A stretch of DNA of 64,000 nucleotides, from positions 1 through 64,000 of the forward strand of contig JAEKLQ010000054.1 in assembly GCA_019509785.1 (NCBI GenBank). The letters run 5' to 3'. Shown here piece by piece: positions 23,459 to 28,959 of the stretch (its first letter is position 1; each line of letters opens with the position of its first letter). A program made the position numbers and the translations under genes. This DNA comes from Fibrobacterota bacterium. GTDB lineage: Bacteria; Fibrobacterota; Fibrobacteria; UBA11236. A model generated the notes under the pieces. The model was given only the letters and a program-made list of their open reading frames with translations. It made no database searches and had not been told where the DNA came from.

Positions 23459-24625
23459 CTAGCGGCCTGCGGCCACGGGATGAGCCGCGTGCTTCTTGAT
23501 CTCGGCGATGAACTCCTCGAACAGGTAATGGGAGTCCTTGGGGCCAGGCGATGCTTCCGGATGGTACTGCACCGAGTAGGCGGGCGAGTTCTTGAGACGC
23601 AGGCCCGCCACGGTCTTATCGTTGAGATTGATATGAGTCACTTCGACTGCGTTGGAATCGAGGCTGGCGGGATCGACCGCGTAGCCATGGTTCTGCGAGG
23701 TGATTTCCACCTTGCCGGTGCGGAGATCCTTGACGGGATGATTCGCGCCGCGATGGCCGAACTTGAGCTTGAAGGTCTTGCCGCCGACCGAGCGCGCCAA
23801 CAACTGATGTCCCAGGCAGATCCCGAACAGGGGTTTCCCCGCGGGCAAGAGCGCCTTGATGGTATCCACCGCGTAGTCCAGCACGGCGGGGTCGCCCGGG
23901 CCGTTCGACAAGAAGATCCCGTCGGGATTGCAGGCCAGGATTTCCTCGGCCTTGGCGTCGGCCGGGAAACGCAAAACCGTGGCGCCCTGGGTCTCGAGCT
24001 TGCGGAGGATATTGTACTTGGCGCCGTAATCGATGGCCGCGATGGTGAATTTCCGTTGGCGCTCGGGAGAGGGCCGGAAGCTCAAGGCGCTTTCGCGGCC
24101 ATGCCATTCCTCCCGCTTGCCGATGGTCACCTGGCGAACGAAGTCGAACTCCCCGAAAGGCCGAACCGCCTTGGCCTTCGCCAGGGCCGTCGCGACGTCC
24201 ACGTTCCCGACCATGATGACGCCGTTCTTGGCGCCGGTCTCGCGCAGGATGCGCGTCAAACGACGCGTATCGATCCCCATGATGCCGGGGATGCCGTTCT
24301 TCTTGAGGTACTCAGAGAGCGACCAGGGATGCTTATCCTTGGCTTCGTCGGCGCGCCAATTGGACGGGTATTCGCAACAGTTCTTGACCACCAATCCCGA
24401 GACCTGGATCTGCTTCGACTCCACGTCCTCGGGGTTGATGCCGTAATTGCCGATCTCCGGATAGGTCAAGGTGACGATCTGGCCGGCATAGGAAGGATCG
24501 GTGAGGATCTCCTGATAACCGGTCATGGAGGTGTTGAAGCAAACTTCCCCCGCGCCGTCCTTTTCGGCGCCGAAGGATTCCCCTTCGAAATAGTTCCCGT
24601 CTTCCAGGGCGAGAATGGCTTTCAT
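23459..24625 (-). CDS. carA: Carbamoyl-phosphate synthase small (glutamine amidotransferase) subunit
   Basis: Hydrolyses glutamine and feeds ammonia to CarB for carbamoyl phosphate, used for arginine and pyrimidines. 388 residues. The N-terminal CPSase_sm domain starts KAILALEDGNYFEGESFGA; the class I amidotransferase domain has the nucleophile Cys270 (FGICLGHQ) and the His355/Glu357 pair (YHPEASPGP). carB is not in the window. It starts 9 bp after the tatB/5-FCL gene and so appears to be part of the tat operon. Confidence 0.97.
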   Translation of the reverse strand: MKAILALEDGNYFEGESFGAEKDGAGEVCFNTSMTGYQEILTDPSYAGQIVTLTYPEIGNYGINPEDVESKQIQVSGLVVKNCCEYPSNWRADEAKDKHPWSLSEYLKKNGIPGIMGIDTRRLTRILRETGAKNGVIMVGNVDVATALAKAKAVRPFGEFDFVRQVTIGKREEWHGRESALSFRPSPERQRKFTIAAIDYGAKYNILRKLETQGATVLRFPADAKAEEILACNPDGIFLSNGPGDPAVLDYAVDTIKALLPAGKPLFGICLGHQLLARSVGGKTFKLKFGHRGANHPVKDLRTGKVEITSQNHGYAVDPASLDSNAVEVTHINLNDKTVAGLRLKNSPAYSVQYHPEASPGPKDSHYLFEEFIAEIKKHAAHPVAAGR

Positions 24626-24634
24626 GTTTTTCCT

Positions 24635-25435
24635 TCAGACCACTTCGATTCGGGGCGCCGAGAAGACCTGCGTCCGCTGGTCCGTGACCACGGCGTCCAT
24701 GGTTTGATCGTGCGCGTCCAAAGGTAGGTTTTTCTCGGTGATTTGTACGTCGTAGGCCAGCCCGGCCTTAAAGCCCCGGAAGCCGGCGAGATAGCGATCC
24801 TAGAACCCCTTCCCTTTGCCCAAGCGGCCGCCCCGGAGGTCGAAGGCGAGCCCCGGGGCCAGGATCAGATCGGGCTTGGGAGGCTCGCCGGTACGGGCGG
24901 CGGGGACGGGTTCCCGAATTCCAAACCTCCCCTCGGCCAAGTCCTTCTCCAAATCCTTCACCGGCGCGAAGGCCATGGCGGCCTCCTTGCCTTCCCCATG
25001 GACATACGGCAGCAACAGGACCTTGCCTTCCGAAAGGATGCGGCGGAGCAGGGGTTCGGTATCGATCTCGGTGAGCTCGGATGCGAAGCAAGCCACCGTC
25101 CCGGCGTTCTTATAGGTTTGCCAATCGGCGACCCGGACGGCCAATGCCTCCGCGGCGCGCGCGCGATCCGTCGCCGGCAGCAGGGCGATCCGATCCTTGG
25201 CCCAACCCCGCAACGATGCCTTGTCCATGCCGACCTTCATCTGCTTTTCGATCGCTTCGGCTTCGATGGTGATGGTTTCCAGTTGGGCGCGCACCTGGGA
25301 TTGGATTTCCAGGGCCTTGCGCTTGAACTTGCCGAACTCGCGCATGACCCGGCCCAACTCCTTGGGCTTGACCAGAACCACCGCCAGGGCCAGCACTACG
25401 CCCACTTCGCCGATGCCGAGGGAATCGAAAATCAT
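24635..25435 (-). pseudogene. TatB-like/5-formyltetrahydrofolate cyclo-ligase fusion, interrupted by in-frame TAG
   Basis: ATG 25435 overlaps the tatC stop by 4 bp. Residues 1-70 are TatB/TatA-like: short N-terminal membrane segment (GIGEVGVVLALAVVLV), the hinge proline (KPKELGRV) and a long amphipathic helix. From residue 70 (MDKASLRGWAKDRI) the frame continues without a stop into a 5-FTHF cyclo-ligase domain, which converts 5-formyl-THF to 5,10-methenyl-THF. At codon 212 (24800-24802) a TAG replaces the tyrosine expected in the GxGFYDR loop (here GKGKGF-stop-DRYLAGF). The same frame then runs 54 more codons with clear family sequence (AYDVQI, HDQTMDAVVTD) to TGA at 24635. The TatB part should still be made; the ligase would be truncated before its substrate loop is complete. 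Confidence 0.8.
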
Positions 25436-26163
25436 GCGGTCTCCTCTTCCGCCTTCTTCTGCGCCACGGCCGCGATCCCGATGGAGATCAGGTAGAGCAG
25501 GCACAAAGGCACGGCCATCAGGCATTGCGAGACGGGATCAGGCCCGGGGGTCAAGAAGGCCGCCACCACGAAGATGAGCACGATGGCATAGCGGAAGAAT
25601 CCCCACATGCCCTTGGCGGTGATGAGGCCCATGGAGGCGAGCACGTAGGAAACCACCGGGAGCTCGAAGATGAGCCCGAAGGCCAGCATGAACTGGCTCA
25701 TGAATCCCATGAATTCGTCCTGGCGCCAGTTCTGCGCGATGGCGCCGTTGGTGTAGGTGGCCAGGAAGGCCAGGCCCGCCGGCAGCACGGCGAAATAGGC
25801 GAAGGCGGCTCCCACCCCGAACATGATGACGGACGATCCGAAGGCGATGGCGAATACCTTGCGTTCCTTTTGGAAAAGGCCCGGCGCCAGGAAGCGCCAA
25901 ACGTGCCACATGGTCCAGGGGATGGAGATAATGACCCCCGAGATGAGGGACATCTTGATGCTGGTCATGAAGGTTTCCATCGGCGAGGTCGCGATGAATA
26001 TCACCTTCAGATGTTGCTTGGTAAGCGGATAGGCCAAGGCCGCCCAGAGGCGCTCCCAATAGCCGTAGCAAACGGAGGCCGCGATGCCCACGCCGATCAT
26101 GATGCGGATCAGGCGGGAGCGGAGCTCCGTGATATGATCCCAGAATGTGGTTTCGGGCGCCAA
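25432..26163 (-). CDS. tatC: Sec-independent protein translocase TatC
   Basis: Polytopic core of the twin-arginine translocase that binds signal peptides. 243 residues, six hydrophobic segments, starting TFWDHITELRSRLIRI as is typical. Conserved features include the periplasmic loop FIATSPMETFMTSIKMSL, the IPWTMWHVWRFLAPGL block and the membrane glutamate in LIFELPVVSYVL. TTG 26163 is the annotated start; no better in-frame start precedes the conserved helix, and the ribosome site is weak. Lies 51 bp after tatA and overlaps the downstream tatB fusion by 4 bp. Confidence 0.95.
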   Translation of the reverse strand: MAPETTFWDHITELRSRLIRIMIGVGIAASVCYGYWERLWAALAYPLTKQHLKVIFIATSPMETFMTSIKMSLISGVIISIPWTMWHVWRFLAPGLFQKERKVFAIAFGSSVIMFGVGAAFAYFAVLPAGLAFLATYTNGAIAQNWRQDEFMGFMSQFMLAFGLIFELPVVSYVLASMGLITAKGMWGFFRYAIVLIFVVAAFLTPGPDPVSQCLMAVPLCLLYLISIGIAAVAQKKAEEETA

Positions 26164-26214: not shown

Positions 26215-26421
26215 TCAGGTCTTCGGCTTGTCCTGGGTGTCCGGATTCGCGAGGGGTTTGACTTCGGCCTTGGCTTCTTCTTCGCCGGCCATGGAGGATT
26301 TGAAATCGCGGATGCCTTTGCCGAGGCCCTTGGCGATTTCTGGGATCTTCTTCCCGCCGAAAAGCAGGATGACGATCAGGAAAATGATGAGAAGTTCCAT
26401 GGGACCAAGTCGACCGAACAT
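26215..26421 (-). CDS. tatA: Sec-independent translocase TatA/TatE subunit
   Basis: Pore-forming small subunit of the Tat system. 68 residues from ATG 26421, which follows a GGAGG site (GGAGGTTACA before ATG). One membrane helix (PMELLIIFLIVILLF), the FGGKKIPEIAKGLGKGI hinge and amphipathic helix, then a charged tail. The open frame upstream to 26484 is not part of the family. First gene of tatA-tatC-tatB/5-FCL-carA. Confidence 0.95.
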   Translation of the reverse strand: MFGRLGPMELLIIFLIVILLFGGKKIPEIAKGLGKGIRDFKSSMAGEEEAKAEVKPLANPDTQDKPKT

Positions 26422-26533
26422 TGTAACCTCCGGGTGACCCGCAGAGCGGCGCCTACGGAAGTATACTAAATGCCCGCCAGGCATGTCTGCCAGGGGAATC
26501 CGGCGCCAAAATGCCGTCGGGGGATTTTGGCAA

Positions 26534-26612: not shown

Positions 26613-27864
26613 AATCCGGCTTCGCGTCCTCGGGCTTGAGCCAGGGTTCCAAAAGCAAATCCTCCTGCCATTTCATCCATTTCGCGGCGGCGATCATTTT
26701 CGGCCGGGAGGTGCAGCCGGTCAGGGCCACGGCGGTCAGGGTGGACTTGGTGGCGAGCAGGGAGGGATCCATTTGCAATTCGGCGGCGATCCTGTCCCGC
26801 ACTTCCTTCAAGCGTCCGAGCACGGCCGAACTCGGGCTGACTACGGGCTTGCGCGGCGGGCGCAGGGGTTGCGGCCACGCGGCTTCGGGCGAATCCAAGG
26901 CCTGCCGGAAGGCATCCAGGAAGCCGGCCTTGATCTCCGGATTGAGGCGCGAGGGGAGGGAGGGTACCTGCTCCGGTTCCCCCGAGGGCGGCACGGCCAT
27001 CGCGAAGCGGAGCAAGATATCCGACGGCAGGATTTTATAACTGGGCAGATCGGTTTTCTGCGCGATGAAGTCGCGATACTTCCATAGCGACTGCAGGGCC
27101 GCCAATTGCCGGGGATAAAGCTTGGAAGAGCCGTCGATCCGCCACGTGTTCTCCAGATCCACTTCCTTCGATTTGGCCGTGGCCTTCACCAGTTCGCGGC
27201 AGGTTTCCACGTGCCAATCCAAGCGCTGCTTCGCCGTTAGCTCATCGGTGAGCGCTTGATGCAGGCCCGGGAGGAAGAAGGTGTCCTGGGCGCCGTACTG
27301 GAGCATAAGCGGCGGCAACGGGCGCTGCGACCAATCCGCTTTTTGCTGATCCTTCTTCAGCGTGACGCCGAAGAAGGCATGTACCAAGGCCGCCAGACCG
27401 AAAGCGGGCTTGCCCAACAATTGCGCCGCCAACATGGTATCGAAAATCCTGTAGGGGCGGAAGCCATGCTGCTGGTAGAGCATGCGCAAATCGTAATCGG
27501 CGCCGTGAAGGACGAGGATCTTTTCCGAGAGCGCCGCGAGGAACCCGTCCAGCTTAATGTCCCCATTCAGCGGATCCACCAGATAGCAGGTCTCGCCGAC
27601 CAGGATCTGGATGAGGCAGATCTTGGCGAAATAGTGGTGCATGCTGTCGGCTTCGAGGTCGAGGTATACCGTCTCGACTCCGCGCATGGCCTTGATCAGT
27701 TTGCCTAGGCCCACGTCGGTATCGACGTATTCGATGGGAAAGCTGGGTTGGGCGAGGAGGTTGGGTTCGGTCAATGGATGCAGCGCTTTGCGGAAAGGGG
27801 AGGGCGGAAGATATATCTCGCCGACGGATAAGGGGTTATGTGATTTTCCATGATTCGGCTTCAA
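26611..27864 (-). CDS. rnd: Ribonuclease D-like 3'-5' exonuclease with HRDC domain
   Basis: DEDDy-type exonuclease acting on tRNA 3' ends or other structured RNAs. 417 residues, somewhat longer than E. coli RNase D (about 375), mostly because of an N-terminal ~40-residue extension. Catalytic acids: Asp69 and Glu71 (YLDLEAD), Asp125 (HGADYDLRM), and the Tyr190/Asp194 pair of Exo III (YGAQD). An HRDC domain follows (about 245-320, LAALQSLWKYRDFIAQK), with a second HRDC-like helical block near the C-terminus. TTG 27864 is the furthest in-frame start; a later TTG (27774) would give a protein closer to usual length. Confidence 0.9.
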   Translation of the reverse strand: MKPNHGKSHNPLSVGEIYLPPSPFRKALHPLTEPNLLAQPSFPIEYVDTDVGLGKLIKAMRGVETVYLDLEADSMHHYFAKICLIQILVGETCYLVDPLNGDIKLDGFLAALSEKILVLHGADYDLRMLYQQHGFRPYRIFDTMLAAQLLGKPAFGLAALVHAFFGVTLKKDQQKADWSQRPLPPLMLQYGAQDTFFLPGLHQALTDELTAKQRLDWHVETCRELVKATAKSKEVDLENTWRIDGSSKLYPRQLAALQSLWKYRDFIAQKTDLPSYKILPSDILLRFAMAVPPSGEPEQVPSLPSRLNPEIKAGFLDAFRQALDSPEAAWPQPLRPPRKPVVSPSSAVLGRLKEVRDRIAAELQMDPSLLATKSTLTAVALTGCTSRPKMIAAAKWMKWQEDLLLEPWLKPEDAKPD

Positions 27865-27878
27865 ACATGAAATTAGAA

Positions 27879-27893
27879 AAAAGTGCTACTTTT
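27879..27893. promoter_or_regulatory. Short palindrome between rnd and trpS
   Basis: AAAAGT-GCT-ACTTTT, a 6-bp inverted repeat around three bases, sits in the 93-bp divergent gap between rnd and trpS. It could be an operator or a small hairpin; nothing else identifies its role. Confidence 0.3.
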
Positions 27894-27957
27894 GGGTTCT
27901 CGCGAAATGGCGATGGCGCCGATGGGCGCGGATTCGCTCGGCAAACAAAGGGTACTC

Positions 27958-28959
27958 ATGGCTTTACGGGCTTTAACGGGCATCAAACCTACGGGAGAAC
28001 CCCATGTGGGCAATTGGCTGGGAGCCATCAAACCCGCCCTGGCTTTGGCTTCCACATACGAAACCTATTACTTCATCGCCGATTACCATGCGCTCAACGC
28101 CGTCTACGATCCGGAAGCCTTGCGCAAGCATACCTACTCCATCGCCGCGACCTATCTGGCCTTCGGACTTGATCCGGAGAAATCGGTCTTTTACCGTCAA
28201 AGCGAGATTCCGGAGGTCTTCGAACTGTCCTGGATCCTGGCCTGCTTCGCGGGCAAGGGGCTGATGAACCGGGCGCATTCGTACAAGGACGCGGTTGCCA
28301 AGAACGTCGACGCCCAAAAGGATCCGGATCATAACATCAACATGGGCTTGTATACCTACCCCATCCTGATGGCCGCCGATATCCTGATTTTCTCCGCCCA
28401 TGTGGTGCCCGTGGGCGCCGATCAGAAGCAACACGTGGAAATCGCCCGCGACATCGCCGAGCGCATCAACCACAATTACGAGTCGGAACTGTTCACCTTG
28501 CCCCAGCCGAAAATCGAAGAGCAGGTGAAAACCATCGTCGGGCTGGACGGACGCAAGATGAGCAAGAGCTACGGGAACACCATCCCGCTCTTCCTCGAGG
28601 AGAAGGCGCTGCAGAAGCGCATCAATCAGATCGTCACCAATAGCCAAGAGCCCACGGAGCCGAAAGATCCGGAGCAAAGCCATATCTTCGCGCTGCATCG
28701 GCTGTTGCTTTCCGATTCCGAAACCCAGGCCCTACGCGCTAAATACCAGGCCGGGGGCATGGGCTGGGGCCAGGCCAAGAAGGATTATTTCGAAGCCTTG
28801 AACGCCCAGCTCAAGGGCCCGCGCGAGGAATACCGCCGCTGGATGGCGGATCCCGCCGCCCTGCAGGCCGTGCTGGCGAAAGGCCGGGACCGGGCCCGCG
28901 CCGCGGCTTCGGTATTTTTGGATCGTATTAGATCTACCATCGGCATCGCGCCGCGCTGA
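27958..28959 (+). CDS. trpS: Tryptophanyl-tRNA synthetase
   Basis: Charges tRNA-Trp. 333 residues from ATG 27958 (AAAGGG upstream), normal for bacterial TrpRS. Class I signatures: TGIKPTGEPHVGNWLGAI in place of HIGH, and KMSKSYGN. The tryptophan pocket region is YYFIADYHAL, and the GADQKQHVE block is typical. The frame stays open to 27883, but the extra 25 residues lack similarity. No leader terminator or T-box is visible in the 93-bp upstream gap. Confidence 0.97.
   Translation: MALRALTGIKPTGEPHVGNWLGAIKPALALASTYETYYFIADYHALNAVYDPEALRKHTYSIAATYLAFGLDPEKSVFYRQSEIPEVFELSWILACFAGKGLMNRAHSYKDAVAKNVDAQKDPDHNINMGLYTYPILMAADILIFSAHVVPVGADQKQHVEIARDIAERINHNYESELFTLPQPKIEEQVKTIVGLDGRKMSKSYGNTIPLFLEEKALQKRINQIVTNSQEPTEPKDPEQSHIFALHRLLLSDSETQALRAKYQAGGMGWGQAKKDYFEALNAQLKGPREEYRRWMADPAALQAVLAKGRDRARAAASVFLDRIRSTIGIAPR

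Follow-up and report, generated by a model that had tools for sequence, protein, structure and literature searches.

A single in-frame TAG in a TatB::5-formyl-THF cyclo-ligase fusion gene of a Fibrobacterota draft genome

The window analysed in this study is a stretch of 64,000 nucleotides from a draft Fibrobacterota genome (G000; 5.4 Mb, 106 contigs, 96% complete), and on its minus strand lie tatA (26215..26484), tatC (25432..26163), an interrupted gene (24635..25435) and carA (23459..24625). The PF02416 match of tatA (64.5 bits on 26215-26415) is the only one in the genome, and tatC was recognized by PF00902 (219 bits). Translation, Pfam and relatives identify the interrupted gene as a fusion of TatB with 5-formyl-THF cyclo-ligase (5-FCL). 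Its ATG overlaps the tatC stop codon, and the frame from 25435 to 24635 (MIFDSLGIGE...GRLGKGKGF*DRYLAGF...IEVV*) is open except for a TAG at codon 212 (24802-24800), the product being predicted to end after residue 211 of 266. Past the TAG there are 54 further sense codons in frame (24638..24799), apparently untranslated, and then a TGA (24637-24635) that ends the full fusion 9 bp before the carA ATG at 24625.

Residues 1-70 (25226..25435) form an intact TatB-like domain, which matched TatA and TatB chains in a PDB profile search. The TIGR01410 (tatB) model matched all 11 aligned N-termini of the fusion (alignment A2), with a best E-value of 1.4e-8 that is below the curated cut-off; the window's own N-terminus scored 26.9 bits (E 5.1e-6) against an equivalog cut-off of 56.5 bits. 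The segment resembles TatB of the twin-arginine translocase in its membrane helix followed by an amphipathic helix and in adjoining tatA and tatC, and no other TatB candidate was found in the genome. It differs from TatB in this low score and in carrying an enzyme domain at its C-terminus.

The 5-FCL domain ahead of the TAG (residues 72-211, 24803..25222) covers positions 1-141 of the 186 in the Pfam 5-FTHF_cyc-lig profile with 97.4 bits, and reading through the TAG extends the match to positions 1-185 and raises it to 143.2 bits, which argues that the ligase frame crossing the stop is not due to chance. Read through, residues 72-251 score 134.6 bits with TIGR02727, and both this model and PF01812 exceed their curated cut-offs, as expected of a bacterial 5-FCL (MTHFS). 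Unlike such enzymes, the window's domain sits behind a TatB-like segment and is broken off by a TAG in place of the conserved tyrosine of the GxGxGFYDR loop, and under the standard code the product stops ahead of the tyrosine in GxGxG(F/Y)YD. The tail after the TAG is identical to the nearest relative (G005) at 41 of 53 residues. The original prediction had placed the TAG on this loop tyrosine, with 54 codons of cyclo-ligase running on to the TGA just ahead of carA, and translation, the tyrosines of relatives and the gain in Pfam score all bear this out.

5-FCL catalyses the ATP-dependent conversion of 5-formyl-THF. The AlphaFold model of the fusion (mean pLDDT 80) resembles the solved 5-FCL structures 2jcb, 1sou and human 3hy6, and in it a helix (211-218) and three strands (222-226, 248-250 and 255-257) fall at or past the stop. 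As the lost quarter holds the helix after GxGFYDR and the later strands, the truncated ligase is predicted to have no activity; TatB may remain functional. The interrupted gene is the sole PF01812 match in the genome, in which no FTCD_N enzyme that could substitute for 5-FCL was found.

Nearly all relatives examined carry a tyrosine where the window has the TAG. In the same genus, four of the five other genomes have the fusion without a stop, the G002 copy being divided between two contig ends; the fifth (G001) gave no fusion match, and since its tatC match begins at base 3 of a contig the gene next to tatC would lie off that contig. All ten relatives aligned with the window's gene (alignment A1) have tyrosine at the site, encoded by TAC in six and TAT in four, so that the TAG is indeed a single base away from either codon, as had been proposed. 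In a wider set of homologues, 143 of 144 loci could be aligned and showed 141 tyrosines, two phenylalanines and no stop. A scan with a pattern that required YD supplied 80 of these loci, which are thus biased towards tyrosine; the remaining 63, a few of them second copies from the same genome, comprise 61 tyrosines and two phenylalanines. The comparison with related genomes suggested in the original prediction thus finds the stop in G000 alone. In-frame stops were noted in some distant homologues, and six of these were checked: the stops in G103, G123, G043, G140 and G165 coincide with the domain's natural end, and the TAA in G085 precedes a separate ligase frame.

No excess decay after the TAG was detected by site counts or by dN/dS, the 54-codon tail making this a weak test. 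Of the sites at which the rest of the genus agrees, G000 has changed at 12 of the 74 that precede the TAG and at 4 of the 34 that follow it (Fisher p 0.77). Compared with G005, dN/dS is 0.272/1.385 (about 0.20) before the stop and 0.145/0.749 (about 0.19) after it. The lack of decay means that the stop either arose recently, is not real or is read through.

Could TAG be a sense codon in this lineage, through loss of release factor 1? Its gene, prfA, was not matched above cut-off in five of 17 genomes (G000, G001, G002, G004 and G010), and this loss, with reassignment of TAG, initially seemed real. It was, however, dropped once the end of a G000 contig was found inside the neighbour of prfA. 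Members of the same genus, G003 and G005, have prfA. In G005 prfA and prmC adjoin the 16S rRNA gene, and in G003 and G006 prfA is also near a contig end. Contig C78 of G000 (28,264 bases) runs out within the gene that immediately precedes prfA (match 27823-28263), and in G002 the same gene ends 254 bases from a contig end and points towards it. As the contig ends inside the gene upstream of prfA, the missing prfA of G000 looks like a gap in the assembly next to the rRNA operon, not a gene loss. The position of prfA-prmC beside an rRNA operon (loci L238, L181 and L182), which leaves release factor 1 absent from several draft genomes, can mimic loss of this factor.

TAG also serves as an ordinary terminator in this genome. 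Across 862 kb of G000, TAG closes 114 of the 441 non-overlapping open reading frames that reach 250 codons or more, TGA closes 203 and TAA 124; carA, too, has a complete domain (Pfam) and a TAG as its stop, in support of the earlier statement that the code is not reassigned. ARAGORN called no tRNA with a CUA anticodon at the loci of 43 tRNA hits, a set that is incomplete as the Trp tRNA was also uncalled. With neither a suppressor tRNA, nor loss of release factor 1, nor rarity of TAG stops seen in G000, there is next to no chance that TAG is read as sense in this lineage. A weak 63-nt hit (L168:1001-1063, G000:C84:6194-6256; 45 bits) was considered as a suppressor tRNA and rejected; it is tRNA-like but was uncalled by ARAGORN, and by eye the anticodon arm, or most of it, seems to be absent. 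The tetranucleotide CTAG, within which the TAG at 24800-24802 falls, occurs 352 times in the 862 kb (window included), compared with about 727 expected from trinucleotides.

Programmed readthrough, by which the TAG would be passed at some rate to yield both TatB alone and TatB joined to the ligase, was the third of the options originally proposed, beside a nonsense mutation and a read error. The frame past the TAG is open and constrained, which speaks for readthrough. However, the stop is kept by no relative (none in 143 loci), a CUA tRNA was not found, and the 100 nt past the TAG fold no better than shuffled sequences (z 0.06, stem-loops only); neither conservation of the stop nor a stimulatory structure downstream, by which programmed readthrough is recognized, was thus seen at this site, and we consider readthrough by design very unlikely. 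The earlier suggestion that readthrough would couple TatB to a full ligase overlooks the stop-free full fusion, which is the normal form in relatives.

The other two options both survive. On the first, which we put at nearly an even chance, the TAG is a very recent nonsense mutation in the sequenced population. In the normal state a single frame, with a membrane TatB domain followed by 5-FCL, would be translated from a tatA-tatC-tatB::5-FCL-carA array; one base change would have turned the conserved tyrosine codon into TAG, and ribosomes should halt there, leaving TatB and a ligase domain about one quarter short. The change would be very recent, for the sequence past the TAG still looks like that of a constrained gene. 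The absence of the stop from every homologue examined, the common use of TAG as a terminator, the similar rates of change on both sides of the stop and the structural elements lost beyond it are all in keeping with such a mutation. Against it, loss of the only 5-FCL found, with no FTCD_N replacement, should be costly, the partial ligase left on TatB could do harm, and the lack of decay is equally compatible with a sequencing error.

On the second, which appears quite possible at somewhat less than an even chance, the TAG stems from an error in the consensus or the assembly, or from a minority strain, and the true gene is intact as in relatives. The draft state of the assembly is consistent with this, as is a stop seen in one genome only, in a single-copy gene and with no decay past it. 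Signs of widespread error were, however, lacking among the candidates drawn from 862 kb of the 5.4 Mb genome. A screen of this portion by composition considered 5217 stops with 40 open codons on each side; 50 of them passed the scores, and in nine of these the first 20 codons held no in-frame start. The nine included the present gene and one case omitted as, by eye, two separate genes; among the seven others, tested with Pfam, no domain was found to span a stop, a result that also fits a nonsense mutation in this one gene. The gene resembles single-nonsense pseudogenes in having one in-frame stop, being otherwise intact and having stop-free relatives, and differs from them in showing no further decay, which keeps an error plausible. 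Mutated or misread, the stop comes down to a gene interrupted in an ordinary way or to an error, and it warns against building biology on one base of a draft genome.

The fusion of TatB and 5-FCL is a more interesting fact than the stop. A profile of the fusion (A1) matched 162 of the 167 Fibrobacterota genomes examined. Taking as fusions those matches that start at or before profile position 9 and contain no stop except the window's TAG, TatB and ligase lie in one frame in at least 34 of the matches listed, G000 included, and in at least nine of the 13 families examined (f1, f2, f4, f7, f9, f10, f11, f12 and f13). Where checked, the fusion homologues (L003-L012, L248-L266 and L274-L279) adjoin tatC, and five further members of family f3 have a weak match to the TatB model ahead of the ligase. 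Judged from these sequences, the fusion is old and common to much of Fibrobacterota. A literature search at the level of titles and abstract openings found no published description of it. If functional, it would tie a subunit of an export translocase to one-carbon metabolism. That the TAG is leaky in this lineage and fixes how much TatB is free and how much is tethered to the membrane as TatB-ligase, and so tunes an ancient link between the Tat translocase and folate recycling throughout the phylum, is highly improbable.

A hit in Bacteriovoracia (L143, residues 6-255) proved to consist of two separate genes, a small one and then 5-FCL, with no TatB fusion. In the genomes of genus g4 examined the ligase does not adjoin tatC, which is absent from several of them, and no TatB match was found in one g4 locus (L026) at E 0.1. 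The g4 loci (L026, L031 and others) encode a 5-FCL with a short hydrophobic N-terminus, which may be a remnant of the TatB fusion.
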